Positions 18,399 to 47,064 of a stretch of DNA of 64,000 nt are shown here, piece after piece. Source of the DNA: Flectobacillus sp. BAB-3569 (GTDB taxonomy: Bacteria > Bacteroidota > Bacteroidia > Cytophagales > Spirosomataceae). Location: the NCBI RefSeq assembly GCF_002270355.1, contig NZ_NJFZ01000005.1:124001-188000 (forward strand), written 5' to 3'. The first letter of the stretch is position 1; each line of letters begins with the position of its first letter. The notes below the pieces were generated by a model. It was not told the origin of the DNA and did no database searches. It saw only the letters and a program-made list of their open reading frames with translations. A program made the translations under genes and the position numbers.

Positions 18399-19688
18399 CT
18401 AATGAAACTGCTCTTCTTCGGTTGAGCCTTTCAAGGCGCCAGTAGATGCCAAGCCTCCTGTAACGGTATTTTGAATTGCGTCAAAATAACCTGTTCCTAC
18501 AAATGCTTGGTGTTTTACGGCCTTGAAGCCTTTTGATTGTAGTGCAAATTCACGTTGTTGTAATTCTGAGAAACCAGCCATTCCACGTTGTACATACGCA
18601 CTTGATAATTCGAACATAGCGGTATTCAAGGCATGGAAACCTGCCAAAGTAATAAACTGGAATTTGTAGCCCATATCTGCCAACTCCTCACGGAATGTTT
18701 CCATTTTTTTCTCGTCCATAAACTTCGCCCAGTTAAACGATGGCGAACAGTTGTAAGCCAACTTTTTGCCAGGATATTTGGCATGGATACCTTGAGCAAA
18801 CTCACGAGCCATTCCCAAATCTGGATTTCCTGTTTCCATCCAAATTAAGTCTGAATATGGCGCATAGCTCAAACCACGGTCGATACCTTGTTCAAGCCCA
18901 TTTTTCACATAAAAGAACCCTTCTGAAGTTCTTCCTTTATCGGCTTGAATAAATTTCAAATCTCTTTCATCTACATCCGCCGTAATCAAATTGGCTGCCT
19001 CTGCATCGGTACGAGCAATTACCAAAGTCGGAACGCCCATTACATCGGCTGCCAAACGAGCAGCAACTAATTTATTGATAGCCTCTTGTGTAGGCACTAA
19101 TACTTTTCCTCCTAAGTGACCGCACTTTTTAGCAGAAGATAACTGGTCTTCAAAGTGTACGCCTGATGCTCCTGCTTCAATCATCCATTTCATCAACTCA
19201 AAGGCGTTCAAATTACCTCCAAAACCAGCCTCTGCATCGGCTACGATAGGTACCATCCAGTGCACGTCGCCATCACCATTGACATTTTGAATTTGATCGG
19301 CACGTAACAAAGCGTTATTAATTCTTCTCACCACCGCAGGAACGCTATCAGCTGGATACAAACTTTGGTCAGGATACATATTACCTGACAAGTTAGCATC
19401 GGCTGCTACTTGCCAGCCAGACAAATAGATAGCTTTCATACCTGCTTGGACTTCCTGTACAGCTTGGTTGCCCGTCAAAGCGCCCAGTCCAGCTACCCAA
19501 TGATCATTTTTCAACAAGTTCCAAAGACGCTCTGCACCCATACGTGCAATACTGTAATCAAGTTTGTAAGAACCCGCCAAACGAGCTACTTCTTCAGCAC
19601 TATAAGGTCTTTCGATTCCTTCCCAACGAGGGTTTGTAGTCCAGTCAGTTACCAACTGTTGGATTCTTTCTTCTTGTGAAATTTTCAT
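18399..19688 (-). CDS. aceA: Isocitrate lyase
   Basis: 429 aa. Cleaves isocitrate to succinate and glyoxylate (EC 4.1.3.1), the first glyoxylate-shunt step, which lets cells grow on acetate. The catalytic signature KKCGH is at 187-191 (C189). [10 protein letters not shown] at 149-158 binds metal and glyoxylate. NCSPSFNW near residue 315 is also typical. Length fits the short bacterial form. Its leader holds ATAACAAAACAA 16 nt before the ATG, a word shared with aceB and two more genes here. Confidence 0.97.
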
Positions 19689-19704
19689 GGTTTTAATTAG
19701 TTTT

Positions 19705-19716
19705 TTGTTTTGTTAT
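19705..19716 (-). promoter_or_regulatory. Shared leader word ATAACAAAACAA upstream of aceA
   Basis: On the minus strand the exact 12-mer ends 16 nt before the aceA ATG. Identical copies precede aceB (21964-21975), the porin gene (25044-25055) and the prpE-like gene (32995-33006). Confidence 0.6.
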
Positions 19717-19746
19717 AAGAAAAGCATACACATAGTAGAACCTGAC

Positions 19747-20185
19747 TATTGATGAGTTGTGAGTGGCGAATTGTGAATCATTAAAGTGAAATTCAATTTA
19801 TATACAACTGAATAACAGATACTTGACTTCAAAACTCATAACTCAGCATTCATCAAAGTACTATCGTTCTAAAAATAGTAGCAAATAAGCTCATTGGGGT
19901 GTCTCAAGGCTAACACCCCGCCGAACTAAAATTGGTTATTAATATGCTTTAGGCTGTAAGCCTTAGGCAGAAAAGCTTCGATTATTTTATGAGAAATATC
20001 TTTAAATACATAGTAAACAGTTTTAAACTGTTGAAAATTGAGTCCAAGACTAAGTCTTGAACTAGAGAAAACAAAAACAATCCATCAGATAAATTCCTAA
20101 TAATTAGAAACTTACACCAACAATTAGGATTGTAAGAAAGATATTCTTTTGTCCAAAAGCGTTCTTATCATTAGTGTTTTTTGAT
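19747..20185. other. Non-coding gap upstream of aceA / downstream of aceB
   Basis: No supported gene. It contains AATTCACAACTCA-type words (19747-19855), a GCTTTAGGCTGTAAGCCTTAGG palindromic patch near 19945-19966 that resembles one at 13855-13876, and AT-rich DNA. The aceA promoter should lie near 19717-19760, but no full -33/-7 pair is convincing. Confidence 0.45.
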
Positions 20186-20244
20186 GTAGTGGCAACCCTT
20201 GCGGTTGCCATTCTGAATGTGGCAACTGCAAGGGTTGCCGCTAC
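20186..20244. repeat. 59-bp palindromic repeat (25-bp stem)
   Basis: Arms 20186-20210 and 20220-20244 (built around GGCAACCCTTGC / GCAAGGGTTGCC) pair over all 25 positions as RNA, with only two G-U pairs, around a 9-nt loop. It lies 79 bp past the aceB stop. The form is that of a REP/MITE-type mobile palindrome, or it may act as a transcript end or barrier. Confidence 0.8.
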
Positions 20245-20322
20245 TGCAATTTTACTTTAAAAACAAAACTTAATCCTTCGTAAAGTACTGATTCACAACT
20301 CACAATTCATCATTCAAAACTC

Positions 20323-21948
20323 CTAACTCTGTAGCGCTTCCTCTTGACTGAGAAGTACTTCATAGGCATCGGTTGTTAGGAAATAATCGAATCCTTCTTG
20401 TGTTACGAGCTTGTCAAACAGTTGAATAGCCTCTATAAATTTGCCAGCATCATATTTTTCAATTCCTACTAAATGCTTGATTCTCTGGACTTCATCACTG
20501 AGCAAATACTTGTAATAGTCTGTATCAATTAATTGTCCTTGGTCGGTTTTGGCGCCATGATGAAGCCATTGCCATACTTGGGCTCTGGAGATTTCGGCTG
20601 TAGCGGCATCTTCCATAAGGTTATGGATCGCTGCTGCTCCTACTCCTCTCAACCATGACTCTATGTACAAAATACCTACTTGGATATTCATTCTGATACC
20701 AGCTTCAGTAATGGCGGTATTCGGAATCGTAAAGTTGATTAGCTCGGCACCTGTAATGACTTCATTTTCAAGTATTACCTGTTTTTGGTTAGGATTTTCG
20801 CCCAAAGCTTTATTAAATGGTACTAGTGCTACTGCCACCAAATCGGGATGAGCTACCCATGTGCCATCAAAGCCAGTACTTGCTTCTAGTTCTTTATCGG
20901 CGTTCACTCGCTCAAAAGCCATTTTATTCACAGCTTCATCCTTACGGTTAGGTATAAACGCAGACATTCCTCCGATAGCATGAGCTTTGCGTTTATGACA
21001 AGTTTGCACTAATAATTTTGCATAAGCTCGCATAAACGGCACGGCCATCGTTACCTGAACGCGATCTGGAAGAAGGCAGTCGGCATATTGATGAAATTTC
21101 TTGATACAACTAAAGATATAATCCCAACGACCTGCATTGAGTGCCGCAATATGGTTGCGAAGTTCGTACAGGATTTCATCCATCTCAAAGGCTGCCATGA
21201 TGGTTTCAATCAAAACCGTCACTTTGGTCGTACCTTGCGGAACCTCTAAAGTATCTTGTGCCGCTACAAATAGGTCATTCCAAAGACGAGCCTCTAGGTG
21301 ACTTTCCATTTTTGGTAAATAGAAATATGGTCCACTTCCACGCTTGATTAATTCCCAAGCATTATGAAAGAAATACAAACCAAAGTCAAAAATCGAAGCC
21401 GAAGCTGGCTCTCCGTCGATTAGCACGTGTTTTTCTTCCATGTGCCAGCCACGAGGACGCACTTTCAAAACCGCCACTTCAGGATTTAGCGCATAAAATT
21501 TACCATTGTCGGCCGTAAAGTCTATTTGTTTACGAATAGCATCACGCAAATTAATTTGCCCTTCGATGACATTGCTCCAAGAAGGCGTGTTGGCATCTTC
21601 AAAATCAGCCATAAAGACTTTCGCCCCAGAGTTGAGCGCATTGATTACCATACGACGATCAACAGGTCCTGTGATTTCGACACGACGGTCTTGTAAGTCT
21701 TGCGGAATTGGGGCAACACTCCAGTCAGCCTGACGAATCTCAGCAGTTTCTAGCAAAAAATCTGGCAAAATACCTTGATTGATTTGTTCTTGACGCAGAA
21801 CACGATTATTGAGCAAAGCCAAGCGCTGACGATTGAACATTCTTTGCAAATCGCGCACAAAGGTCAATGCCTCTTTGGTCAGAATAGTCTCAAACTGCGG
21901 TGATACTTCTCCCAATATCTCCACTCCTTGAATTGAATGCTGATTCAT
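20323..21948 (-). CDS. aceB: Malate synthase A
   Basis: 541 aa. Condenses glyoxylate with acetyl-CoA to malate (EC 2.3.3.9), the second glyoxylate-shunt step. Signatures are FMADFEDANTPSW near residue 115, LIETIMAAFEMDEILYELRNHIAALNAGRWDYIFS near 250 and ESWLRGVGAAAIHNLMEDAATAEISRAQVWQW near 430, the last holding the catalytic Asp region. It is divergent from a RamB/ScfR-like regulator gene, the classical arrangement for local control. A promoter and the shared ATAACAAAACAA leader word lie just upstream. Confidence 0.97.
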   Translation of the reverse strand: MNQHSIQGVEILGEVSPQFETILTKEALTFVRDLQRMFNRQRLALLNNRVLRQEQINQGILPDFLLETAEIRQADWSVAPIPQDLQDRRVEITGPVDRRMVINALNSGAKVFMADFEDANTPSWSNVIEGQINLRDAIRKQIDFTADNGKFYALNPEVAVLKVRPRGWHMEEKHVLIDGEPASASIFDFGLYFFHNAWELIKRGSGPYFYLPKMESHLEARLWNDLFVAAQDTLEVPQGTTKVTVLIETIMAAFEMDEILYELRNHIAALNAGRWDYIFSCIKKFHQYADCLLPDRVQVTMAVPFMRAYAKLLVQTCHKRKAHAIGGMSAFIPNRKDEAVNKMAFERVNADKELEASTGFDGTWVAHPDLVAVALVPFNKALGENPNQKQVILENEVITGAELINFTIPNTAITEAGIRMNIQVGILYIESWLRGVGAAAIHNLMEDAATAEISRAQVWQWLHHGAKTDQGQLIDTDYYKYLLSDEVQRIKHLVGIEKYDAGKFIEAIQLFDKLVTQEGFDYFLTTDAYEVLLSQEEALQS

Positions 21949-21963
21949 GTCTTACTGGTGGTT

Positions 21964-21975
21964 TTGTTTTGTTAT
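21964..21975 (-). promoter_or_regulatory. Shared leader word ATAACAAAACAA upstream of aceB
   Basis: Exact 12-mer on the minus strand, 15 nt before the ATG and about 21 nt downstream of the -7 box, so it lies within the transcribed leader. Confidence 0.6.
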
Positions 21976-21996
21976 TTTCAGAGCTATGGCTTTGAG

Positions 21997-22029
21997 CAAA
22001 AGTATCTGAGAAACACTATTTACATCAAA
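21997..22029 (-). promoter_or_regulatory. aceB: aceB promoter (TTTG - 21 bp - TACTTTTG)
   Basis: Minus-strand TTTG (22026-22029) and TACTTTTG (21997-22004) match the Bacteroidota -33/-7 consensus with a 21-bp spacer. The predicted transcript start leaves a leader of about 40 nt. Confidence 0.6.
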
Positions 22030-22116
22030 CGCCATTTTTAGGTTTTCCTCTCTGTCTTCTGCATTGGTTTTGGCACTTGGGCGCTACATTGATAGAGGAA
22101 ATGGCTTTTTATTTTT

Positions 22117-22128
22117 GTGAAATTTCGC
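22117..22128. promoter_or_regulatory. Operator-like site GTGAAATTTCGC
   Basis: One base from the perfect palindrome at 22216-22227 and followed by the same TAA. The two sites lie 99 bp apart in the aceB-regulator divergent region. This one is 88 bp upstream of the aceB -33 element. Confidence 0.5.
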
Positions 22129-22215
22129 TAAATCTTTTCTTTATATCTGATGAAAAAGAAATAACTTATCGCTGAACTTCGAAACAAAGTTAAAAATGCG
22201 AAAATTAAAAAACAA

Positions 22216-22227
22216 GCGAAATTTCGC
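22216..22227. promoter_or_regulatory. Operator-like perfect palindrome GCGAAATTTCGC
   Basis: A 12-bp palindrome, extending to 14 bp as AGCGAAATTTCGCT. It lies 67 bp before the regulator ATG and about 40 bp upstream of its -7 box (TAATTTTG, 22269-22276). A half-site-like TTTCGTTA follows at 22241-22248. It is a likely binding site for the adjacent HTH regulator. Confidence 0.55.
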
Positions 22228-22293
22228 TAATCTATAATATTTCGTTATTTTCTTTAAAAATTTATACGTAATTTTGGAAAAACAATAAACGAC

Positions 22294-23784
22294 ATGAGTG
22301 CAAACAGCGATAAAGTAAAAATAATCTTCGGACTGAAAATCAGACAGTTACGATTAGACAAAAAGCTCTCACTGAGCGAAGTTGCCGAAAAATCGGGCTT
22401 ATCTATCTCCTATTTGAATGAGATAGAAAAAGGGAAAAAATATCCCAAAACCGAAAAAATCATGGCGCTATCCGATGCTTTAAATATAGATTATGACTCT
22501 TTGGTATCGCTAAAATTGAGTAAACAGCTCGAACCTATCGCCGAATTACTCAATTCGAATATCCTTACAGAGCTGCCTTTAGAGATTTTTGGGGTTGAAC
22601 CAGCCGACTTCATTGAGCTAATGTCGGAAGCGCCAGCCAAAATTTCAGCCTTTATTAGTACGATTATCGAAATTAGTCGTAACTACGATATGCGCGTGGA
22701 GCAGTTTTACTTTTCGGTATTGCGCTCCTATCAGGAAATGTATGACAATTATTTTCCTGATATTGAAGAATCAGCACAGCAGTTTCGCAAGCTTTTCGAG
22801 ATTTCGGAAATCACTTCACCCAACGATACCTTATTATCTGACATTCTCCAAAATTTCTATGGCTATCAGATAGAAGAATTCACACGTGAAAGTCATCCTG
22901 ATTTGACTACCATTCGTTCGGTGTACAATCCCAAAACATCGAAACTGTTGGTCAATGGTGATTTAAGTCCCGAACAAAGAGCTTTTACTTTTGGACGTGA
23001 GTTAGGATACCAATTTTTGCAACTCAAAAATCGCCCTTATATCTCGTCGGTAATAGAAGTGAATTCGTTTGAGCAGGTTCTCAACAATTTCAAGGCATCG
23101 TATTTTGCAGGCGCGATTTTGATTAATAAGAATGTATTAGTTGATCGTTTGACGTATTTCTTTGCTAGTCCTAAATGGAACGGCGATATGATGTTGAGCA
23201 TTATGCGCTTGTTTAATGCAACGCCCGAAATGTTCTATCATCGCCTATCGAATTTGATGACTAGCCATTTCAAAATCAATAATCTGTTCTTTTTGCGTTT
23301 CAACAACGAGGTAGACCATGAATTGTTCTATTTGACGAAGGAAATGCACTTGGCAAAACTACATACCCCACATGGCACTGCACTCAACGAACACTACTGT
23401 CGTCGCTGGGTATCCTTGACCATTTTGAAAGATTTAGAAAAAATCCAAAAAGAAGAAGGTTACGACCCAGAAAAAGTATTGTGTAAGGCGCAAGTATCCG
23501 AATATATCGACACCAACAACCATTATTTTGTGATGTCCTTGGCAAAGCCTTCGCCTCCTAACAAAAAGATGAACAGCAGCGTAACACTTGGTTTTGCGAT
23601 TGACGATAATTTGAGAAGTATGGCGCAGTTTCTCAACGACCCAGCTTTACCAAGACGAAAAGTGAACGAAACTTGTGAAAGATGCGGCGCTGTAGATTGT
23701 GCCGAACGAATGAAACCACCATTAGTTCTTGATAAAAAACATTCGCTCGAACGACTCAAGCAAGCAATTGCCTCTTTGGAATAA
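22294..23784 (+). CDS. RamB/ScfR-like transcriptional regulator (XRE HTH + degenerate IrrE-like domain + Cys cluster)
   Basis: 496 aa. An N-terminal Cro/CI-type HTH (residues about 10-65, SLSEVAEKSGLSISYLNEIEKG) is followed by a long middle domain and an IrrE-like segment where the HExxH zinc site is lost (FTFGRELGYQFLQL, near 230-243). A C-terminal Cys cluster, CERCGAVDCAERMKPP (about 461-476), is typical of short-chain fatty acyl regulators. Actinobacterial RamB has this architecture and controls aceA/aceB and acetate genes. Here the gene is divergent from aceB with palindromic sites between them, so it probably controls the same pathway, perhaps sensing an acyl-CoA. Regulation direction is unknown. 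Confidence 0.85.
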   Translation: MSANSDKVKIIFGLKIRQLRLDKKLSLSEVAEKSGLSISYLNEIEKGKKYPKTEKIMALSDALNIDYDSLVSLKLSKQLEPIAELLNSNILTELPLEIFGVEPADFIELMSEAPAKISAFISTIIEISRNYDMRVEQFYFSVLRSYQEMYDNYFPDIEESAQQFRKLFEISEITSPNDTLLSDILQNFYGYQIEEFTRESHPDLTTIRSVYNPKTSKLLVNGDLSPEQRAFTFGRELGYQFLQLKNRPYISSVIEVNSFEQVLNNFKASYFAGAILINKNVLVDRLTYFFASPKWNGDMMLSIMRLFNATPEMFYHRLSNLMTSHFKINNLFFLRFNNEVDHELFYLTKEMHLAKLHTPHGTALNEHYCRRWVSLTILKDLEKIQKEEGYDPEKVLCKAQVSEYIDTNNHYFVMSLAKPSPPNKKMNSSVTLGFAIDDNLRSMAQFLNDPALPRRKVNETCERCGAVDCAERMKPPLVLDKKHSLERLKQAIASLE

Positions 23785-24364
23785 ATTGATTTTACCAATA
23801 TTAGGTTTTTAGTCGTATGCTAACAGCGTATCTATGTTTCTTTGGAAAAGCTAGAAACATTTTGTCCAATGCCTACCACTAATCCGCCCAAATCGTAAAA
23901 ATGCCATCTTGGAGAGAATTATTAATTAACTATGAAATAGTTGATTAACGGATATGTAAAGTTATCAGAAACCAAAATATTTTGTCAAAAAGCATGAAAT
24001 ATTAGGCACTTTTGTCTTTGTCATGTACAACATCCAGATTCAACAAGTCACAGACTATGAGAATTTTGCGTGTGGGTTTGAGCAATTATGAGAAATTTAT
24101 TATTTCGACCTATCCTAAAATGACAAAAATTTCATTTTTACTGAAAAAAAATTAAGTCTAATTATTCTTCGTTTTGTACAACGTTTTATACTCGACTTTG
24201 GACAAAACAAATAATATTTCGATAATTATCCATTTTTAGAATAATATTTTGAATAAAACCTTTATTTCGGATTATTTCAGTAGAAAAAATAAGTATCTAA
24301 AAACTTTTATATTGTTGCTCAAATGATATATATTTGCTAACCGTAATATATCACAAAAAAATCT
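23785..24364. other. 580-bp AT-rich non-coding gap
   Basis: No supported gene or clear repeat. A -7 box TATATTTG at 24329-24336 lies 28 bp before the next ATG and probably starts that transcript. Confidence 0.5.
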
Positions 24365-24784
24365 ATGAAAAACCCAAATTGCCCAAAATGTGACTCATCA
24401 TTAGTCACCAAAAGCGGAGTTATCAAGGATAAGCAGCGCTTCAAGTGTAAAACTTGTAATTATAACTTCACTGTAGAGAAGCTTGGTAAAGGTATTTCTC
24501 AATACTATGTTATCAAAGCGCTTCAGCTCTATATTGAAGGTGTTACTTACCGCGAAATTGAGCGATTATTGGGTGTTTCACACGTTTCTGTGATGAACTG
24601 GGTTAAGAAATATCAGATAAAAGTACCTAAAGGAAACGAATACCATCCTACTTATAAAATACTGAACCACAAAGAATTAGCAGAATTTTATGCGAATAGG
24701 GAAAATCTTAAAGGAGCAGGTATGATTGTAACCGAGTTAGGGGACAAATTCATGCTCATTAAATGGGAAAGACTAAAGCACTAA
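24365..24784 (+). CDS. InsA-like zinc-ribbon/HTH protein without a transposase catalytic domain
   Basis: 139 aa. A zinc ribbon with C6-x2-C9 and C28-x2-C31 (NPNCPKC ... RFKCKTC) is followed by an HTH (about residues 47-83, GVTYREIERLLGVSHVSVMNWVKKY), as in the DNA-binding InsA part of IS1-type transposases. No DDE/InsB frame follows; a terminator lies 111 bp on, and I see no terminal inverted repeats. The C-terminal 45 residues (HPTYKILNHKELAEFY...MLIKWERL) are unlike a transposase. It stands between the RamB-like regulator and the porin gene in the acetate cluster. A domesticated DNA-binding regulator is likely; a transposon remnant is the alternative. Confidence 0.7.
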   Translation: MKNPNCPKCDSSLVTKSGVIKDKQRFKCKTCNYNFTVEKLGKGISQYYVIKALQLYIEGVTYREIERLLGVSHVSVMNWVKKYQIKVPKGNEYHPTYKILNHKELAEFYANRENLKGAGMIVTELGDKFMLIKWERLKH

Positions 24785-24894
24785 GCAAGTACGATGGGTT
24801 TTTCAATATAGATTTATTACCGAAAACACCACCTAACCACCGATTTCATTATTTTTCGAAGAATAATTGGTAGTCAAAACTATACAAAAATTGC

Positions 24895-24928
24895 AAAACT
24901 ATACCACTGCTATTGCTGGTATAGTTTT
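24895..24928 (+). terminator. Intrinsic terminator after the InsA-like gene
   Basis: Stem AAAACTATACC / GGTATAGTTTT with a 12-nt loop, followed by an uninterrupted T-run. It insulates the porin gene from the upstream gene. Confidence 0.85.
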
Positions 24929-25043
24929 TTTTATGAGGTTTGTATCATAAACCAGTGCAAAAAAAGCACAGAATATTACAACAAAACAAAACCATAGAAC
25001 TGTTATTAGTTCTTTTTGAAAAATACCCTCATTAGGCAATTTT

Positions 25044-25055
25044 ATAACAAAACAA
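25044..25055 (+). promoter_or_regulatory. Shared leader word ATAACAAAACAA upstream of the porin gene
   Basis: Exact 12-mer 24 nt before the ATG. A second near-copy, ACAACAAAACAA, occurs earlier in the same leader near 24979-24990. Confidence 0.6.
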
Positions 25056-25079
25056 GACCACAAAAACCATTCTTCGATT

Positions 25080-26555
25080 ATGAAAAGATTTTTATTGTCG
25101 GTGTTAGGCACGGCTATTTGCACGTCTAGCATTGTTGCTCAAACTAGTACAACCTCTAGTTCAACAACGGCATCAACGCCAGCCAAAACAGAGGCACCTG
25201 CCGAGCAAAAAGTGACAGTGTACGGGTTTGTGAGAAATGATATTTACTATAATACAAGAAGAAATTTAGATTTGAGAGATGGGGTATTAGATGTATATCC
25301 ATCAGATGCAACCAACCTCCCAACTCGTTCAGGAACAACCTTAACACCCAACGGTAGCGACGATGCAAACGCCATTCCACAACTCGGTTACTCGGCCATT
25401 GTAACAAGATTAGGAGTAAAATTCGGTGGGATAAGTGCTTTTGGAGCCAAAGCAAGTGGTATACTTGAAACCGACTTTTTTGGTATTACCAACGGAACAG
25501 CAGGTACATCGGGAGGCGGAACAGAAAACTTACTTCGTTTGCGCCACGCTTATGTAGCGCTGGATTGGGCAAAAACTCAATTACTAGTAGGTCAATACTG
25601 GAACCCAAACTTTATACCAAAGTGCTTTCCAGGAACAGCCAACTTTAATACAGGGATTCCGTTCAACCCATTCTCGTTTATACCACAAGTTCGCTTGACA
25701 CACAAACTTTCGAACCTCGTATCATTTACCGGAATATTGTTTGGTTACGATTTACAAGGATTTAGTCCAGCAGGTGCATTTGGTTCAGGAACAGGAGTTG
25801 ACGCTTACAAATATGCCACTACACCATCATTTGCAGCGCAACTTGGTGTAGAAAACAAGAAGTTTTTGGCAAGCTTCGGTTTAGAAGGAAACACAATCCG
25901 CCCAAGAATTACAGATACACAAAACCCAAGCACAGGTGCTTGGGGAGGAACAGGAGCTCCAAATATTTCTAAAAATATTTCGACAAACCTATTTACGCTC
26001 AACTTGTTGGCTTATGCAAAATATACCTCTAGTAAGCTAACAGCAAAGTTCCATACAACCTATGGACAAAGCTATACACAGTATGTAGGTTTAGGTGGTT
26101 TGGCAGAATATCGTAACGCTACCACTGGCGAATGGAAATATGCGGCTCAAAATCAATGGAACCTTTGGGGTGAGTTGATTTCTACCAAATCAAAATCTGT
26201 ACAACCAGCTATTTTTGTAGGTTATCTGAAAAACTTAGGTTTATCAGATGCTATCAACAAATCTGATATCCAAAGCGGTAGCTTAGCATTTTTGGGCAGA
26301 GGTATCAGTGCTACAAGAACTTTTGATAGCATGTTCAGATTGGCGCCAAGAGTTGATTTTTATTCTGGCAAAATGAAGTTTGCCCTTGAGTACGAAATCA
26401 GCGCTATGAAATGGGCAGATGTAGATGGCACAGTGCCAAACGCAGCAGGAACCCTACCAAGTAGCATCTCATTCAAGCCTGCAAGCGGTGATTTAGCTCG
26501 TTCGTTCACAGCTACAAACCATCGTTTACAAGCAGTAGTAGTATATAATTTCTAA
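25080..26555 (+). CDS. Outer-membrane porin (beta-barrel)
   Basis: 491 aa with a signal peptide (MKRFLLSVLGTAICTSSIVAQ), then a Ser/Thr/Ala-rich linker to about residue 45. The barrel begins VTVYGFVRNDIYYNTRR and ends in the aromatic HRLQAVVVYNF, a C-terminal Phe as in outer-membrane barrels. Alternating polar/hydrophobic strands and Gly/aromatic girdles run throughout (for example GQYWNPNFIPKCFPGTANFNTG). Its place before an MHS-family transporter and within an acetate cluster suggests it lets short-chain organic acids through the outer membrane; that is inference. It shares the ATAACAAAACAA leader word with aceA, aceB and the prpE-like gene. Confidence 0.85.
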   Translation: MKRFLLSVLGTAICTSSIVAQTSTTSSSTTASTPAKTEAPAEQKVTVYGFVRNDIYYNTRRNLDLRDGVLDVYPSDATNLPTRSGTTLTPNGSDDANAIPQLGYSAIVTRLGVKFGGISAFGAKASGILETDFFGITNGTAGTSGGGTENLLRLRHAYVALDWAKTQLLVGQYWNPNFIPKCFPGTANFNTGIPFNPFSFIPQVRLTHKLSNLVSFTGILFGYDLQGFSPAGAFGSGTGVDAYKYATTPSFAAQLGVENKKFLASFGLEGNTIRPRITDTQNPSTGAWGGTGAPNISKNISTNLFTLNLLAYAKYTSSKLTAKFHTTYGQSYTQYVGLGGLAEYRNATTGEWKYAAQNQWNLWGELISTKSKSVQPAIFVGYLKNLGLSDAINKSDIQSGSLAFLGRGISATRTFDSMFRLAPRVDFYSGKMKFALEYEISAMKWADVDGTVPNAAGTLPSSISFKPASGDLARSFTATNHRLQAVVVYNF

Positions 26556-26561
26556 GATCAC

Positions 26562-26640
26562 TTTTACAAAAAATTGTAAAGTAAAGCCAGAGGGGCTGAG
26601 CGCGTAGAACTAAGCCCTTCGAACCTCAACTTTACCCTAA
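26562..26640 (+). ncRNA. Structured porin-transporter intercistronic region (candidate RNA element)
   Basis: Hairpin TTTACAA/TTGTAAA (26563-26580) is followed by a closing stem GTAAAG (26581-26586) / CTTTAC (26630-26635) enclosing GGGCT/AGCCC pairing. The interior words GGGGCTGAG and CTTCGAACCT recall TPP riboswitch words, but the conserved P4-P5 part is missing. It may be a processing site, an attenuator or a small cis element for the transporter gene. Confidence 0.35.
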
Positions 26641-26675
26641 ATCAAAGTATTAACCCCGTTTAACCATTAGCAACT

Positions 26676-28238
26676 ATGTCAGAAAAGAAATCTACCGCAG
26701 GACTAGCATCCATCATTGGAGCTTCATCGGTTGGAACCCTCATCGAATGGTATGACTTTTATATCTTCGGAAGCTTAGCCACTATTATCTCAACACAGTT
26801 TTTTCCAAAAGACAACCCTACAGCGGCATTTTTGTCAACACTTGCGACCTTCGCAGCGGGCTTTGTAGTTCGTCCTTTTGGTGCACTTTTCTTCGGTCGT
26901 CTTGGTGACTTGATTGGTCGTAAATACACATTCATGGTAACACTCGTATTGATGGGTGGAGCTACATTTGCCATCGGTTGTGTGCCAGGTTATGAAACCA
27001 TTGGTTTCTTTGCGCCACTATTGGTATTGGTACTTCGTTTGTTACAAGGCTTGGCCTTGGGCGGCGAGTACGGTGGCGCTGCTACGTATGTTGCAGAGCA
27101 CGCACCTGCCAACGAAAAAGGTTTTTGGACCTCTTGGATTCAAATTACTGCAACGGCAGGTTTGTTTATCTCATTGGCTGTGATTTTGATTACACAATCG
27201 TCTTTAGGTAAAGAAAAGTTTGAAGATTGGGGATGGAGAGTTCCGTTTTGGGTATCTATCATCATGGTATATGTATCTGTCTTAATCCGTAAAAATATGC
27301 ACGAGTCGCCTTTGTTTGCAAAAGCTAAAGCAGAAGGTAAGACATCGGCAAATCCATTGAAAGAGTCATTTGGTAATAAGTATAACTTCAAATATGTATT
27401 GCTTGCATTGTTTGGTGCTACGATGGGTCAAGGGGTGATTTGGTACACAGGTCAGTTCTACGCGCAGACCTTCTTGTTGAAAATTTGTAATATCGATTTC
27501 CAACAAGCCAACACCCTTTTGATTATCGCCTTGATGATGGGTACTCCATTCTTCGTATTCTTTGGATGGTTATCAGACAAAATTGGTCGTAAAGGTATCA
27601 TGTTGACTGGTATGTTATTAGGTGTACTTTGCTACCGTCCTATTTATGAGAAAATCTACCAGACTGCAAACATTAAGAGCAAAGAGGAAATCACGGCTAA
27701 AACAACTGAAGAAGTTAAACGAGGCTTGGTAGAAGGTACAGCCGATTCTTTGATTACTACAACAGTTACTAAAGAGTTTACTGATGGTACAAAATATAAA
27801 GAAGTGAAAAAAGTAACAGTTTTGGCTGATGCTTCAAAAGAGGCGCCAAAACCAGATGTTGTTAAAACCGTAAAATTGAACGAAGGCGATAAGTGGACCA
27901 TGATTTGGATGGTATTTATTCAATTGTTGTTTGTAACAATGGCTTATGGACCAATTGCGGCATTCTTAGTAGAAATGTTCCCTGTAAAAATCCGCTACAC
28001 GTCTATGTCTTTGCCATACCACATTGGTAACGGTGTATTCGGAGGTTTGATGCCAGCAATTGCTACTTACTTGGTGTCAAAAGCAAAAGATGCGAATGAT
28101 GCAGCCGAAAAAGCTGGTCAGGCAGTGGTAAACGCTCAGCCATACTTAGAGGGTTTGAAATATCCAATGTTGATTGCAGGTATCTGTTTTGTCATCGGCT
28201 TGCTTTATATCAAAGAGAAAAAAGGAGGAGTAGAGTAA
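26676..28238 (+). CDS. MFS transporter, metabolite:H+ symporter (MHS) family
   Basis: 520 aa, about 12 membrane segments. The N-terminus GTLIEWYDFYIFGSLATI and the loop GRLGDLIGRKYTFM, then LRLLQGLALGGEYGGAATYVAEHAP, are diagnostic of the MHS group (ProP/ShiA/KgtP-like proton symporters for organic acids and osmolytes). A second conserved loop is FGWLSDKIGRKGIM. An 80-residue hydrophilic insertion (about 326-405, with repeated KEVKKVTV/KTVKL words) separates two helices in the C-terminal half. It lies 120 bp behind the porin gene in the same direction. With acyl-CoA synthetases downstream, acetate or propionate uptake is the best guess. Confidence 0.85.
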   Translation: MSEKKSTAGLASIIGASSVGTLIEWYDFYIFGSLATIISTQFFPKDNPTAAFLSTLATFAAGFVVRPFGALFFGRLGDLIGRKYTFMVTLVLMGGATFAIGCVPGYETIGFFAPLLVLVLRLLQGLALGGEYGGAATYVAEHAPANEKGFWTSWIQITATAGLFISLAVILITQSSLGKEKFEDWGWRVPFWVSIIMVYVSVLIRKNMHESPLFAKAKAEGKTSANPLKESFGNKYNFKYVLLALFGATMGQGVIWYTGQFYAQTFLLKICNIDFQQANTLLIIALMMGTPFFVFFGWLSDKIGRKGIMLTGMLLGVLCYRPIYEKIYQTANIKSKEEITAKTTEEVKRGLVEGTADSLITTTVTKEFTDGTKYKEVKKVTVLADASKEAPKPDVVKTVKLNEGDKWTMIWMVFIQLLFVTMAYGPIAAFLVEMFPVKIRYTSMSLPYHIGNGVFGGLMPAIATYLVSKAKDANDAAEKAGQAVVNAQPYLEGLKYPMLIAGICFVIGLLYIKEKKGGVE

Positions 28239-28428
28239 TGGCTGTAGGCTATCAGCTCTAGGCTTTTGGCAAAATGACTCTTTGGTATTAATGCTAAATT
28301 GCGAGTAGTGTGTTTTGAATATAGAATTCTGGTAATTAAAAATTTACAATCACAATTCACCACTCACAATTCAGCACTCATACTTAACAAATAACTTCTA
28401 TTGAATACATTCTAAATTTTTATATAAA

Positions 28429-28656
28429 ATGGACGGAATTAAAAAAATCTTAGGTATCGTTTGGATCCTCCTCGGTATCGCAGCGGCATGGTTTGGCATC
28501 ACAGTGTTGGGTCTTCCAAAGCTAGCTTCAGGCAAACAAGATGACTTAGTATTTGGAATTATCATCATGTTTATCTTAACGCCAATCATTACAGGAGGTT
28601 TGCTAATTTTTGGTAAATATGCTCTACAAGGAGAATTTAACGAAGAGAATGCTTAA
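28429..28656 (+). CDS. Small two-helix membrane protein (DUF6814-like)
   Basis: 75 aa: helix 1 at about residues 5-28 (LGIVWILLGIAAAWFGITVLGL), a short loop KLASGKQDD, helix 2 at 41-62 (IIIMFILTPIITGGLLIF) and a charged tail. It resembles a Bacteroidota small-protein family found next to transporters. The family name is from memory. The 190-bp gap before it carries AATTCACAACTCA-type repeats (28340-28382), so it may have its own promoter. Possibly a transporter accessory. Confidence 0.65.
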   Translation: MDGIKKILGIVWILLGIAAAWFGITVLGLPKLASGKQDDLVFGIIIMFILTPIITGGLLIFGKYALQGEFNEENA

Positions 28657-28716
28657 TTAAGCTAATGGCTTTTAACCTTTTGAAAATTGTTGATGGTGTA
28701 AAGTTATTTAGTTACC

Positions 28717-28860
28717 AAGTAATCGTGCAGAATAAGATTTGAGTTATGTGTTTAGGTACTAGGCAAAGAGTGTTAAAATGCTTTTTTCAAAGCCCACCGC
28801 CGAAAGCCGTTACCTGAAAGCCCAAAGTACAATCTTAAATTTTATTTTGCTCACTAACTT
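28717..28860. repeat. Dispersed inverted-repeat element, copy C (144 bp)
   Basis: Starts AAGTAATCGTGCAGAATAAG and ends TTTTGCTCACTAACTT, like copies A and B, but lacks about 34 bp of the interior. The rest of the 684-bp gap (28861-29340) holds a short inverted repeat AATGTATG/CATACATT (28920-28961) and no gene I can support. Confidence 0.8.
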
Positions 28861-29340
28861 GAATACTTTACACCAAAAACCAAAGCATAAAATAGTTTTT
28901 AGGGATAGATGAGTTGAGTAATGTATGTCAATGAAGTCATTTTTGGCTCTTGGCATACATTCTTAGTTTATGGGAATACCTCTTTCCAAAAACTCTACCA
29001 ACTTAGCTAAGTAATTGTCTATTTTTTATTGAATAAGTCTTATTTGTTATTATTTTGCTTGACACAGTCAGTAATTATGTATATATACTAGATATAGCCT
29101 CCTCGGAGGGACTTGACGAGTCAGTTTTCCTCAAAGAAACAGGTATTTGGGGCAATTTGAACCATCAAAAATCAAGAGTAAGTATATTTCTGGTAAATTG
29201 GTAATGATGCAAATACGTAAAATAGACAAATTCAGTATTAAGCTTCCCGCCATTGGTAAAATACCATAAAGCAACCATCATTTGCTTTCAATATTAACCT
29301 TATAGCGGTGCTGTAGCAAATCGACCGTATTCCTAAAAAC

Positions 29341-29565
29341 ATGAAAGAATCACTAAAAGAGCAAAGACTTTTTATCATAAGTTGCTTGTTTTTGCTGCTA
29401 TACAATTTTCCGATTATATCAATCTTCAATCTGGATACCCAAATAGCAGGCATTCCAAGCCTATTTCTATATGTTTTTGTACTTTGGCTGATTTTGATTG
29501 TTGTAATCTACTTAAATGTCAGAGAGGTAAACAAAAACCAAGACCATTCAAATCACGATGAATAG
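29341..29565 (+). CDS. Small membrane protein preceding the SSF-domain kinase (DUF3311-like)
   Basis: 74 aa with two hydrophobic helices (about residues 9-30 and 39-61) and a charged tail KNQDHSNHDE. Its stop overlaps the next start by 8 bp, so the two are translated from one message. Small two-helix partners of this kind often sit before sodium:solute symporter genes. Its role is unknown. Confidence 0.7.
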   Translation: MKESLKEQRLFIISCLFLLLYNFPIISIFNLDTQIAGIPSLFLYVFVLWLILIVVIYLNVREVNKNQDHSNHDE

Positions 29566-32266
29566 CTTAATCTTAGTTTTGGCGTCTTTGCTATATCTGG
29601 CATTCTTATTTGGTGTAGCATATTGGGCCGAAAAACGTTCTGGAAAAGGCAAAAGCCTTGTTACCAACCCATACATATATGCGCTTTCTTTGGCGATTTA
29701 TTGTACCGCATGGACTTTCTATGGCTCGGTTGGTCGAGCTGTAGGTTATGGCATCGAATACCTTTCGGTGTACATAGGCCCCACACTTATGATGCCTCTT
29801 TGGTGGTTGGTGATTCGCAAAATTATTCGTATCTCCAAAGTATATCGTATTACTTCTATCGCAGATTTTATTTCTTCCAGATATGGCAAAAATGTAACGC
29901 TAGGTATTATCGTCACACTTGTTTCTCTGGTGGGAGTATTACCCTATATTGCGATTCAGCTCAAGGCTATCTCAAGTAGTTTTAGAATCCTAACACGTAC
30001 TGACTCGCCCTCTAATAGTCATATTTTCTTGGATGACCTTACTTTCTATATCTCAATGGGGTTGGGGCTATTTACCATTATTTTTGGTACCAGAAAAATC
30101 GACTCTACCGAGCGCCATGAAGGAATGGTGGCAGCCATTGCCGCCGAATCAATCATCAAAGCGTTGGCCTTTATCGTCGTTGGTATTTTTGTAACCTACG
30201 GAATTTTCAATGGTTTTGGTGATATTTTCAATAAAGCAGCTTTACATCCTCAGCTAAAATCTCAGTTTTTGATGGATGGCAACAAAGGAGAATATTCCTC
30301 TTGGTTTTGGCATACGGCATTATCAATGAGTGCTATCTTATTTTTACCGAGGCAGTTTCAGGTAGCCGTAGTCGAAAATGTCAACGAAAAACACCTCAAC
30401 AAAGCCATGTGGTTGTTTCCACTGTACTTGTTGATTATTAATATTTTTGTGTTGCCGATCGCCTTTGGAGGAGAATTGCTGTTTCCCAATCATGATGTCA
30501 ATCCCGACAATTATTTATTAGCAATTCCTTTAAAATACGATGCAAAATTCTTGGCGTTATTGACCTATATCGGAGGATTTTCGGCTGCTACAAGTATGGT
30601 TATTGTCGAAACCATTGCCCTCAGTATCATGGTTTCGAATAGCTTAATCATGCCGATTTTATTGGCCTATCCCAAGGTCATTGGCAAATATGAAAACAAC
30701 CTCAGTGGTTTAGTCAACAATATTCGAAGAGTTAGCATTTTTATCATTTTACTTTTGGCATATATCTATGCCAAAGCCATTGCACGCTATTTTTCGCTGG
30801 TATCTATCGGCATGGTTTCTTTTGCGGCCGTTGCCCAATTTGCACCAGCTATTATTGGTGGTATTTATTGGAAAGAAGGTAATCGAAAAGGAGCGATTAT
30901 TGGATTATTATCAGGAACATTTATTTGGTTTTATACCCTCGTACTTCCTTCTCTGATTGGTGCAGGGCTGTTTCCTCATTCTATTTTGGAGGAAGGTCTT
31001 TGGGGAATCAAAGCCCTACGCCCTTCTGCCCTATTTGGCTTAGAAGGGATGGACGACATTTCGCATGGGGTATTCTGGAGTATGTTTTTCAATATTGGTA
31101 GTTATGTTTCGTTTTCGTTAATCACCAAATCTACCTCTATTGAACTCAATCAGGCCGTCACTTTTGTAGATATATTTAGTCATTCCAAGTTTACAGATAA
31201 TACTACCATTTGGCGTGGCACGGCCTATTTGAATGACATCAGAACGCTATTATTCAACTTTTTTGGCGAACGACGAACCGATAGGGTATTACGGCTTTTT
31301 GCCCAAAAACATAGTTTAAATTTAGAAAACAAAAAGGCTGACCCAAAGTTAGTTACTTATTCCGAAAAGCTTTTGGCGGGCGTCGTAGGCGCAGCTTCCG
31401 CTCGTATTATGGTGGCTTCAATTTCGAAAGAAGAACATATTTCGATGGATGAAGTAGTCAATATTCTTCGAGCCTCTCAAGAATTGATGGTCAATAATAA
31501 AGAGCTTCGCAGAAAATCTATCGAGCTTGAAAAAGCGACTTCCGAACTCAAAGAGGCTAATGAAATTTTGAAACGTACCGACAAGCTCAAAGATGACTTC
31601 TTGTCGACAGTCGCACACGAAATACGTACTCCGCTGACTTCTATTAGGGCTTTATCAGAAATTGTGTACGACAATCCAGATATGGATCAAGAAGAACGAG
31701 AACATTTTTTAGGTACTGTCGTAAAAGAGTCGGACCGCTTGAGTCGATTAATTAATCAGGTGCTAGATTTAGAAAAATATGAATCTGGTCGACAGAAATT
31801 GATTAAAGAAAATGTAGATATACAGGAAATTGTGAAAGATAGTATCGATGCACTTTATCAACCTGCAAAAGAAAAGGGAATCAAAGTGGTATTCTTGCCA
31901 GATCGTTTTGCGCCAAAATTTGAGGCAGATAGAGATAAGTTGATACAAGTCGTGGTAAATCTTATATCCAATGCCATCAAGTATTGCGAAGCAGATAAAG
32001 GCGAAATCCAAATAGCCACACATTATGTCGAAGGTGCGATTTATACCAGTATCCAAGACAATGGCGTAGGGATTGCCAAAGAGTTTCAACGACTGATTTT
32101 TGACAAATTTTTTCAAGCAGAAGATCAAACTATCAAAAAACCAAAAGGAAGCGGATTGGGATTGGCTATTTCCAAAAAAATCGTTGAACTACACCAAGGA
32201 CAAATCTGGGTAGAAAGCGAAGTAGGACATGGTTCTAAATTTACCTTTATGCTTCCAGTGGTATAG
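29558..32266 (+). CDS. Sensor histidine kinase with N-terminal sodium:solute symporter (SSF) domain (CbrA/CrbS-like)
   Basis: 902 aa. Residues 1 to about 510 form a 12-13-helix SSF domain (YCTAWTFYGSVGRAVGYGIEYLSVYIGPTL). A linker and a coiled coil (about 640-680, NKELRRKSIELEKATSELKEANEILK) lead to the HisKA domain with the phosphorylated H687 in STVAHEIRTPLTSIRAL. The HATPase domain shows the N box NLISNAIKY and G boxes DNGVGIAKE and GSGLGLAISKKI. CbrA and CrbS are kinases of this design; CrbS controls acs in Vibrio and Pseudomonas. Position just upstream of the response regulator and acyl-CoA synthetase genes supports a similar acetate-switch role. Confidence 0.92.
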   Translation: MNSLILVLASLLYLAFLFGVAYWAEKRSGKGKSLVTNPYIYALSLAIYCTAWTFYGSVGRAVGYGIEYLSVYIGPTLMMPLWWLVIRKIIRISKVYRITSIADFISSRYGKNVTLGIIVTLVSLVGVLPYIAIQLKAISSSFRILTRTDSPSNSHIFLDDLTFYISMGLGLFTIIFGTRKIDSTERHEGMVAAIAAESIIKALAFIVVGIFVTYGIFNGFGDIFNKAALHPQLKSQFLMDGNKGEYSSWFWHTALSMSAILFLPRQFQVAVVENVNEKHLNKAMWLFPLYLLIINIFVLPIAFGGELLFPNHDVNPDNYLLAIPLKYDAKFLALLTYIGGFSAATSMVIVETIALSIMVSNSLIMPILLAYPKVIGKYENNLSGLVNNIRRVSIFIILLLAYIYAKAIARYFSLVSIGMVSFAAVAQFAPAIIGGIYWKEGNRKGAIIGLLSGTFIWFYTLVLPSLIGAGLFPHSILEEGLWGIKALRPSALFGLEGMDDISHGVFWSMFFNIGSYVSFSLITKSTSIELNQAVTFVDIFSHSKFTDNTTIWRGTAYLNDIRTLLFNFFGERRTDRVLRLFAQKHSLNLENKKADPKLVTYSEKLLAGVVGAASARIMVASISKEEHISMDEVVNILRASQELMVNNKELRRKSIELEKATSELKEANEILKRTDKLKDDFLSTVAHEIRTPLTSIRALSEIVYDNPDMDQEEREHFLGTVVKESDRLSRLINQVLDLEKYESGRQKLIKENVDIQEIVKDSIDALYQPAKEKGIKVVFLPDRFAPKFEADRDKLIQVVVNLISNAIKYCEADKGEIQIATHYVEGAIYTSIQDNGVGIAKEFQRLIFDKFFQAEDQTIKKPKGSGLGLAISKKIVELHQGQIWVESEVGHGSKFTFMLPVV

Positions 32267-32431
32267 GATAAAAGAGATAAAGGGAACAGGCACAAAGGGG
32301 CAAAGTGGAAGAAAGTATTGGAGGACAAGAAAAATAATCATCTGTTTATCAAGTATTTATCAATCTAAAAATCACTCTACCGCTTTACCACTGTATGCCT
32401 TTGTGCCTCTTAATAAAAAAACTCATTAAAG

Positions 32432-32818
32432 ATGAAACAGCAATTAAAAGTATTAGTAGTTGACGACGAGCCTGGCATTTTGATGTCGCTTGAATTCCTG
32501 ATGAAAAAAGAGGGTTATCAGGTATTTATTGCTCGTGATGGAGAGGAAGCACTTGACATCATCGAACGTGAGATTCCATCTATAATTTTATTGGACATTA
32601 TGATGCCCAATGTGGATGGCTATGAAGTATGCCATTTTGTAAAAAGCACCCTCAAGCTAAGTCATATCAAAATTGTGTTTTTGAGCGCTAAAAATAAAGA
32701 ATCAGATATGGAAAAGGGATATGCTATTGGAGCCGACCTATATGTGCCAAAACCCTTTTCTACTCGTACTTTGGTCTCAAAAGTAAACGCTTTAGCCCTT
32801 GGTATCGCAACTAGCTAA
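32432..32818 (+). CDS. Single-domain response regulator (receiver only)
   Basis: 128 aa, only a CheY-type receiver. Acidic pocket D11-D12, phospho-acceptor D55 in IILLDIMMPNVDGYE, S85 in VFLSAK and K107 in VPKPFS are all present. There is no DNA-binding output, unlike CrbR or CbrB. It lies 165 bp after the SSF kinase gene and 208 bp before the prpE-like gene. It probably takes phosphate from the upstream kinase and acts through protein contact or a phosphorelay. Confidence 0.9.
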   Translation: MKQQLKVLVVDDEPGILMSLEFLMKKEGYQVFIARDGEEALDIIEREIPSIILLDIMMPNVDGYEVCHFVKSTLKLSHIKIVFLSAKNKESDMEKGYAIGADLYVPKPFSTRTLVSKVNALALGIATS

Positions 32819-32994
32819 GTTTAGCGGAGTTTTTCACGATTTTTCGGTGTAAACACTTAATTTAGTATTGTGAAAATATTCATGTTTTCTCATGGAATCA
32901 GTCAAACTGATAGTTATTCATAAACCAACGAATACGATGAATAACTAGGGTACTTTTAACTAAAATCACCAACCTGACTGCTCCTATTAAATAC

Positions 32995-33006
32995 ATAACA
33001 AAACAA
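32995..33006 (+). promoter_or_regulatory. Shared leader word ATAACAAAACAA upstream of the prpE-like gene
   Basis: Exact 12-mer 20 nt before the ATG. A TACTTTTA box at 32951-32958, close to the TACTTTTG of aceB, lies 36 nt upstream of it and may be the -7 element. Confidence 0.6.
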
Positions 33007-46464: not shown

Positions 46465-47064
46465 ATGAATCAGTCAAAAAAAGCATCAAATCGTTTAGAA
46501 AGGTTTGTTAGAGACCATCGAGATGAATTTGAAAATCTTGAACCATCGTTGGATTTGTGGGAAAAATTAGAAGCAAAATTACCTACCGACACCGCTTTGG
46601 CTCAACCAGTAGAGAAAAATACTATTATTCCATTTTTCCCTAAAATCCAACGCTATTGGCGTGTTGCTGCAAGTATTGTGGTGGTTATAGGAGCATTAGG
46701 ATTATGGTATGCCAATCAATCTTCGAGCAATTCGGACATAATCGTGAGCCAAGTTGGCGATCAGTACAAAAAGCAAATGGTACATTACGCTAGCTTAATA
46801 GAAACAAAGAGGGATGAAATCCGACAAATTGCCGATAACGAACCTGCTTTGTATCAAGAATTTTCATCAGAAATCGAACGTCTCAACAAAGACTATCAAA
46901 GCTTGAAGGCGGAACTGCCCCAAACGCCCAATCAAGAAGAGTTAGTAAAAGCTATGATTCAAAATTTACAATTACAATTAGATATTTTGAATCAACAATT
47001 ATCAATCATTCAACGAGTTAAAGAAGCAAAACAAGGCCATGGAAAAAGTATGCAAACTATTTAA
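46465..47064 (+). CDS. Membrane anti-sigma factor
   Basis: 199 aa. A cytoplasmic N-terminal segment (residues 1-65, EFENLEPSLDLWEKLEAKL) is followed by one transmembrane helix (about 66-84, WRVAASIVVVIGALGLWYA) and a periplasmic part with long coiled-coil helices (YQSLKAELPQ ... LQLQLDILNQQLSIIQRV). This layout and the position after an ECF sigma gene fit a Bacteroidota anti-sigma factor. It has no classic zinc-binding HxxxCxxC motif. Its 3' end overlaps the next gene by 26 bp. Confidence 0.75.
   Translation: MNQSKKASNRLERFVRDHRDEFENLEPSLDLWEKLEAKLPTDTALAQPVEKNTIIPFFPKIQRYWRVAASIVVVIGALGLWYANQSSSNSDIIVSQVGDQYKKQMVHYASLIETKRDEIRQIADNEPALYQEFSSEIERLNKDYQSLKAELPQTPNQEELVKAMIQNLQLQLDILNQQLSIIQRVKEAKQGHGKSMQTI

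Follow-up and report, generated by a model that had tools for sequence, protein, structure and literature searches.

We analyzed a stretch of 64,000 nucleotides from Flectobacillus sp. BAB-3569 (contig NZ_NJFZ01000005.1, positions 124,001 to 188,000; hereafter the window), in which the 12 nt word ATAACAAAACAA precedes the start codons of aceA, aceB, a porin-like gene and a prpE-like gene. Most probably, this word is the mRNA half of a pairing with a trans-encoded small RNA (sRNA), which would repress glyoxylate-shunt, propionate and related genes without Hfq. The case is built by sequence analysis on the anatomy of the RNA gene, the accessibility of its pairing region, complementarity beyond the word, conservation of the sites and co-occurrence with aceA.

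The leader word and its antisense RNA gene

The four exact copies of the word are located at 19705-19716 (aceA), 21964-21975 (aceB), 25044-25055 (porin-like gene) and 32995-33006 (prpE-like gene). As the first-pass annotation of this DNA had reported, each lies on the coding strand of its own gene, 16, 15, 24 and 20 nt before the ATG, respectively. Dinucleotide shuffles of the window give an expectation of 0.04 copies, and none of 100 shuffles reached four. In the complete genome (G000, 6.62 Mb) there are 14 copies of the word and six of a reversed control word. A copy was counted as a leader copy if the ATG of an open reading frame (ORF) of at least 60 amino acids followed on the same strand at most 80 nt downstream. 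By this definition, 10 of the 14 copies stand before an ATG, all on the coding strand, three lie elsewhere and one is antisense to an intergenic RNA gene; none of the six control copies is a leader copy. We also shuffled 232 leaders taken from 304 kb of the genome (46 from the window and the rest from twelve further 20 kb stretches). Gene calling simply took the longest ORF, starting at its first ATG, so that some starts may be wrong. The shuffled leaders contained 0.007 copies, compared to 4 observed, and the A-rich composition of the leaders thus does not explain the word; it is not scattered at a background rate. In five Flectobacillus genomes (G000-G004) there are 74 copies, comprising 46 leader copies, five in the RNA gene (one per genome) and 23 others.

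The RNA gene was found outside the window, at positions 23741-23817 of contig C30 of the same genome, and has a predicted product of about 75 nt. Its parts follow each other in the order TATCTTTG, three to four bases, a ACCACAAG-UUUGGUUU-CUUGUGGU hairpin, UUUUGUUUUGUUAUAAG, and a terminator hairpin with a U-tract. The single-stranded linker UUGUUUUGUUAU is the exact antisense of ATAACAAAACAA; in the predicted fold (z = -5.4) bases 28-39 are unpaired with a probability of 0.49-1.0, and these are exactly the bases antisense to the word. The -7 box TANNTTTG is present in 9 of the 11 sRNA loci, and in the other two it ends in A. At the level of sequence, two properties expected of a trans-encoded sRNA are present: a free-standing gene, with a TANNTTTG box and a terminator that varies in a compensatory manner, and an accessible seed, indicated by the unpaired linker, the 10 leader sites and the flank test described below. 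Directly upstream of the -7 box lies TAGTA-T-TTCTAAGAA (L004:1433-1464), which is partly palindromic, conserved in the five Flectobacillus loci and a candidate regulator site; no clear TTTG -33 element was seen at this position.

Pairing was assessed by computing duplex energies of the 232 leaders with the 24 nt linker-plus-arm segment of the sRNA. The porin-like gene ranked first (-29.3 kcal/mol), aceB second (-25.0), aceA third (-21.1) and the prpE-like gene sixth (-16.7); the fifth leader, from another stretch, reached -17.2 kcal/mol. At none of four cut-offs did any of 150 shuffled 24 nt segments match the counts observed. The aceA site (19703..19724, minus strand) contains the word within 22 uninterrupted bases antisense to the sRNA, and the aceB site (21955..21976, minus) has 18 uninterrupted complementary bases and is antisense over 22 nt with two mismatches. 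The porin-like site (25043..25064, plus) is likewise antisense over 22 nt with two mismatches; here 14 uninterrupted Watson-Crick bases become 24 nt with one G:U, as pairing extends through GACCACAA. At the prpE-like site (32995..33006, plus), which is the exact word, 13 uninterrupted bases are complementary. A search of the whole genome for the 22 nt antisense with up to three mismatches returned only the RNA gene, aceB, the porin-like gene and one more leader, compared to a single match for the reversed control. That further leader (at L002:1501-1980, with one mismatch in the 22 nt) precedes a gene that looks frameshifted in G000 and is open in G002 (L161); we take the G002 protein to be Rieske-like from its CSHEG and CTAHG motifs.

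A test that is not circular is provided by the bases around the word. Of the 14 bases that flank it, 8.8 pair with the RNA in 34 leader sites, versus 5.9 in 22 other copies and 6.0 in shuffled flanks, and neither 20,000 label permutations nor 2,000 shuffles gave a result as good. For this test, identical near flanks were counted once (46 to 34 leader copies, 23 to 22 others) and the five RNA-gene copies were set aside. Beyond the word, pairing thus exceeds chance at the leader sites only.

The observation that the word lies downstream of a good -7 box at aceB also held. The box, TACTTTTG (21997..22004, minus), is 21 nt upstream of the aceB copy and fits TAnnTTTG, the Bacteroidota -7 motif according to PMC7366714, which places the site inside the predicted transcript. 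This bears on the alternative of a DNA operator for a transcription factor such as the RamB-like protein (22294-23784), for which one could cite the location of this gene, with its RamB-related HTH/IrrE domains, between aceB and the porin-like gene, and the acetate genes that form the core of the set. Against an operator, all 10 leader copies are on the coding strand and the word is not palindromic, and this reading would leave unexplained an antisense gene with promoter box, hairpins, terminator and changes that preserve G:U pairs. We consider it the least probable of the explanations discussed here.

The six other leader copies in G000 precede genes for methylmalonyl-CoA mutase, a long GAPDH, a gamma-carbonic-anhydrase-like protein, an ABM-domain protein, a Rieske-like protein and an unknown protein; the mutase, GAPDH, ABM-domain and carbonic-anhydrase-like proteins were named by models. 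The set of genes that carry the word is thus wider than the acetate and short-chain acid genes noted earlier, and a restriction to acetate genes had to be rejected.

Conservation of the RNA and its predicted targets

The aligned 77 nt of the sRNA are identical in all five Flectobacillus genomes except for one base in the terminator loop, while the flanks diverge. The RNA was also found in Arcicella and Pseudarcicella. Arcicella G061 has a wholly different terminator sequence after an unchanged hairpin and linker, and four further Arcicella genomes have a shorter hairpin loop and changed arm ends with pairing preserved. Among nine distinct sRNA sequences, which include those of Arcicella and Pseudarcicella, 96.5% of cells are paired versus 44-64% in slid controls. 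There are four two-sided pair changes (0-3 in slid controls), all in the terminator helix, and the covariation score is 0.196 (slid maximum 0.096; reached by none of 500 shuffles); the structure was drawn from the same nine sequences, so that the slid control favors it. The gene is convergent with mtaB (so called in G003) in G000, G001, G003, G004 and the Arcicella loci covering the place, and it is kept despite an altered neighborhood in G002 and G061. Release 15 of Rfam gave 15 matches at E up to 5 over five loci, none of them at the gathering score. In the open literature of PubMed Central, judged by title, we found no description of an sRNA of Flectobacillus or the Cytophagales, or of a Bacteroidota sRNA acting on isocitrate lyase or glyoxylate genes; the RNA is apparently undescribed so far.

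On the target side, the leaders of all four window genes are complementary to the sRNA in each of the five Flectobacillus genomes (-16.7 kcal/mol for prpE in G000, otherwise -18.5 to -29.3). For the other genes of the cluster (pckA, fbp, RamB-like, IS1-like, MFS, kinase, response regulator and acs, as covered) the values are -7.6 to -14.9 kcal/mol. The reported absence of the word from the leaders of acs, pckA and fbp was confirmed: in the window their predicted pairing reaches -12.4, -11.2 and -11.8 kcal/mol, compared to -16.7 to -29.3 for the four. The aceA 12-mer was found in 12 of 12 orthologous leaders, including 7 of 7 from Arcicella and Pseudarcicella, while the leader flanks are only 33% identical between genera (nine leaders, 23 pairs; G001, G002 and G118 were left out of the 12 as near-duplicates). 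The distance from word to ATG is 4 nt in Arcicella and Pseudarcicella versus 13 or 16 nt elsewhere.

This variable spacing is informative about an alternative in which the word enhances translation in a generic way, as an A-rich element (Kozak-like or bS1-type) whose lack of structure is the only selected property. In favor of it, the word is rich in A and precedes ATGs, and PMC6847099 states that Bacteroidota initiation favors adenines at -3, -6, -12 and -13. Position-specific adenines are, however, hard to reconcile with spacings of 16, 13 and 4 nt in aceA and 24 nt before the porin-like gene, nor do the composition-preserving leader shuffles agree with an enhancer. Exact bases, Cs included, are retained while the flanks drift, and the extension beyond the word matches the sRNA. 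Among the roles that the first-pass annotation had listed, the enhancer is therefore disfavored, and we regard it as very improbable, slightly less so than the operator; the sRNA target is the one that the evidence supports.

Other sites of the proposed sRNA vary between genomes. In G003 and G004 aceB has lost the exact word and retained 17 and 16 complementary bases, respectively, and the prpE word is retained in the four Flectobacillus congeners. The Arcicella porin leader of G099 has 25 uninterrupted Watson-Crick bases, and in those of G076 and G118 C-to-T changes preserve G:U pairs, resulting in 28 and 27 nt. Arcicella aceB sites show A-to-G changes that preserve G:U pairs in G076, G099 and G118 (-18.4, -14.3 and -13.8 kcal/mol), with an additional true mismatch in G099. 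The mutase word is present in 5 of 5 Flectobacillus genomes, and the mutase leader of Arcicella G061 reaches -15.6 kcal/mol without it. Taken together, aceA and the porin position look like an old target core, to which other targets appear to have been recruited per lineage. In G003 the porin-like protein is replaced by an unrelated one (BLASTP E 0.66; L126:7861-9273, minus), and leader and site are retained. The near-copy of the word noted earlier in the porin leader exists as well (24978-24989). It is part of ACAACAAAACAAAACCATAG (24978..24997, plus), 83-102 nt before the ATG, and is a candidate second site; it is identical in G001 and G002 and does not occur in G003 and G004 within the 150 nt that were covered.

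To determine the distribution of the sRNA, we used a covariance model and counted only matches of at least 84 bits, which were obtained in 11 of 222 genomes of the family. At E up to 0.01, 104 of the 222 genomes contained something; searches over more than 40 genomes used stricter filters and lose weak matches. Weak matches were inspected and not counted: all 19 of L232-L250 are amtB 3'-untranslated region (3'-UTR) paralogues or alike in sequence, and of ten more, two stand behind an amtB-type gene, with the other eight having the look of unrelated sequence with a hairpin and terminator. Among 291 genomes of the order, nine matched at E up to 1e-4, namely G000, six from g12 and two outside the family; two of the six g12 matches (L240 and L243) were inspected, and both belong to the amtB type. 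We searched 30 genomes for aceA, and 11 were positive (G118 with a partial match), which makes 12 with G000. A weak match in G024 (E 5e-12) probably represents a different member of the enzyme superfamily. The sRNA is present in 11 of the 12 aceA genomes and in none of 19 genomes without aceA; two 95%-complete Arcicella genomes (G088, G109) lack both.

Several observations weigh against an sRNA-target role for the word or limit its support. The RNA locus was found through the complement of the 12-mer, so the match of the word alone is not independent and the pairing ranks are partly circular. Of the 74 copies in the five genomes, 23 fall outside both the leaders and the RNA gene. An unrelated leader of the window (47039-47779) ranks fourth of 232 at -20.6 kcal/mol, above prpE; this is probably a chance match. 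The aceB variants of G099 and G118 (-14.3 and -13.8) pair no better than some non-target neighbors, and the aceB leaders of G134, G126 and Pseudarcicella have no clear site. All five Arcicella copies of prpE have weak or missing sites: those of G126 and G134 are partial, and G076, G099 and G118 have none. The mutase word was found in none of nine Arcicella and Pseudarcicella loci and in none of seven other genomes, and in G003 it lies 64 nt before the ATG, which is far for a block of initiation. G118, an 86%-complete metagenome-assembled genome, has aceA with its site and no sRNA was found in it; a partial model match there (C440) contains neither linker nor hairpin word. Finally, the co-occurrence is clustered on the tree, and the link between the sRNA and aceA is thus supportive, not proof.

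Proposed mechanism and the amtB paralogue

In the mechanism that we propose, the RNA would be transcribed from its own TANNTTTG promoter, and its exposed linker UUGUUUUGUUAU would anneal to ATAACAAAACAA in the leaders of aceA, aceB, the porin-like gene, the prpE-like gene and the six other genes. Where pairing is best, the hairpin arm or the foot of the terminator would open, and pairing could continue to 18-25 uninterrupted bases. Most sites are 4-24 nt upstream of the AUG, so that the duplex should keep the 30S subunit from loading at the initiation region and would thereby repress translation. The signal is probably a preferred carbon source, although this is a guess; the target set would fit a regulation by which cells cease to grow on acetate or propionate once a better carbon source is available. 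Expression, repression rather than activation, and the signal are points that we infer from the sequences. Among RNA chaperones the search covered Hfq (PF17209), which was detected in 0 of 14 genomes of this set, compared to 5 of 14 control genomes.

An RNA that pairs with the same sites might instead activate or stabilize the mRNAs, or act as a sponge. The sign of regulation cannot be read from sequence, and some sites are located 20 nt or more before the ATG. On the other hand, the A-rich leaders have, by eye and without folding, no evident inhibitory structure that could be opened, and in aceA of Arcicella and Pseudarcicella 4 nt separate the word from the AUG, a position at which a duplex would necessarily be in competition with the ribosome. 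The Bacteroides sRNAs GibS and FopS, moreover, repress by pairing at the initiation region, according to PMC7366714 and PMC11697453. We thus consider activation or a sponge unlikely, and repression the preferred interpretation.

Behind the stop codon of amtB, all five Flectobacillus genomes have a sister RNA that consists of ACCACAAGUAAUGGUUCUUGUGGUUUUGUUUCAG and a terminator; it is also present in Arcicella loci and, in a variant form, in g12 genomes. In G000 it is located on the same contig as the sRNA gene (C30; L251:1928-2040), with counterparts in L252-L255, L267, L269 and L294-L296. The two sibling RNAs are 0.16-4.5 kb apart in the 9 of 11 genomes in which one contig carries both, which suggests a local duplication. 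The amtB leader pairs with the sister RNA at -17.2 to -18.7 kcal/mol in all 10 Flectobacillus and Arcicella loci inspected, and in nine of these it beats all 60 shuffles. Pairing is unremarkable in all 18 g12 amtB loci (equaled by 5 or more of 60 shuffles), and one g16 locus stands out (-17.6 kcal/mol, none of 60 shuffles as good). The amtB 3' UTR is thus a possible autoregulatory 3'-UTR sRNA. Cross-regulation by the paralogue is not claimed, since its pairing with the aceB and porin leaders (-18.8 and -18.3 kcal/mol) is no better than with unrelated leaders.

Tentatively, and with more doubt than confidence, one could imagine a sibling sRNA module that couples nitrogen and C2/C3-carbon assimilation. 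An amtB 3'-UTR RNA, pairing back to the leader of amtB, would have been duplicated beside amtB, gained a promoter and a new linker, and become a post-transcriptional repressor dedicated to the propionate genes and the glyoxylate shunt, gained and lost together with aceA; with their shared core CUUGUGGUUUUGUUU, the siblings may cross-regulate.

Window genes and known systems

The gene names given earlier were supported by models for three of the four targets. The window encodes an isocitrate lyase, aceA (18399..19688, minus; NF011645, 733.9 bits, cut-off 562), and a malate synthase A, aceB (20323..21948, minus; TIGR01344, 766.1 bits, cut-off 594.5), whose product is 98% identical to a record labeled 'Cellulophaga sp. 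BC115SP' and 96% identical to that of Flectobacillus longus. The prpE-like gene (33027..34937, plus) encodes a propionate/acetate--CoA ligase (NF001208 acetate--CoA ligase, 689 bits, cut-off 657; NF007815 propionate--CoA ligase, 779 bits, under the cut-off of 955). For the putative outer-membrane/porin-like protein (25080..26555, plus) the name remains that of the first-pass annotation and is unconfirmed, as there was no Pfam or NCBIfam match. Another gene of the cluster is presumably fbp.

Between aceB and the porin-like gene, the RamB-like HTH/IrrE-domain protein (22294-23784) matches NF038139 at E 6e-13 (48 bits, cut-off 700). It is distant kin of the acetate regulator RamB, and its gene adjoins aceB in every cluster that covers the place. 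A 139-amino-acid protein (24365-24784) has a zinc/HTH portion that resembles IS1 transposases (NF033558, E 1.6e-21, under the cut-off). All five Flectobacillus clusters have its gene next to the porin position, as do those clusters of Arcicella (three) and Pseudarcicella (one) that cover the place; the protein is possibly a domesticated transposase.

Regulation by sRNAs appears to be little charted in the Bacteroidota outside Bacteroides, which to our knowledge lack Hfq. Bacteroidota initiate without Shine-Dalgarno sequences, and the genomes tested here lack Hfq. A comparatively defined sRNA with a long, exactly conserved pairing site, coherent metabolic targets, a distribution that follows its main target and an amtB 3'-UTR paralogue raises the questions of how an sRNA may silence genes without Shine-Dalgarno sequence or Hfq and how an sRNA may be born from a 3' UTR.

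Several known systems share some of these features. The sibling sRNAs of Neisseria (NmsRs, NgncR_162-163) are neighboring paralogues that tune central carbon metabolism; they resemble the RNAs described here in being paralogous and adjacent and differ in phylum. Spot 42 of E. coli is a carbon sRNA that depends on Hfq and CRP and represses a multi-gene catabolic regulon near the start codons; its pairing is short and imperfect, compared to 13-25 uninterrupted bases here. The sRNA that we take to be named GlnZ offers a parallel to the amtB 3'-UTR paralogue. According to PMC9731577, this glutamine synthetase 3'-UTR sRNA of Enterobacteriaceae derives from the 3' end of a nitrogen-assimilation mRNA and touches carbon metabolism; host gene and phylum differ from the case presented here. 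From the same phylum are GibS and FopS of Bacteroides thetaiotaomicron, which PMC7366714 and PMC11697453 describe as trans sRNAs that repress metabolic genes by pairing with the initiation region. They share with the sRNA proposed here trans action in Bacteroidota and pairing at the initiation region; FopS also targets a SusC porin and belongs to a paralogous family with an intrinsic terminator, as is the case here. GibS and FopS carry the seed in a single-stranded 5' stretch, whereas the seed proposed here is a linker between two hairpins, and the targets and the order of the host are different.

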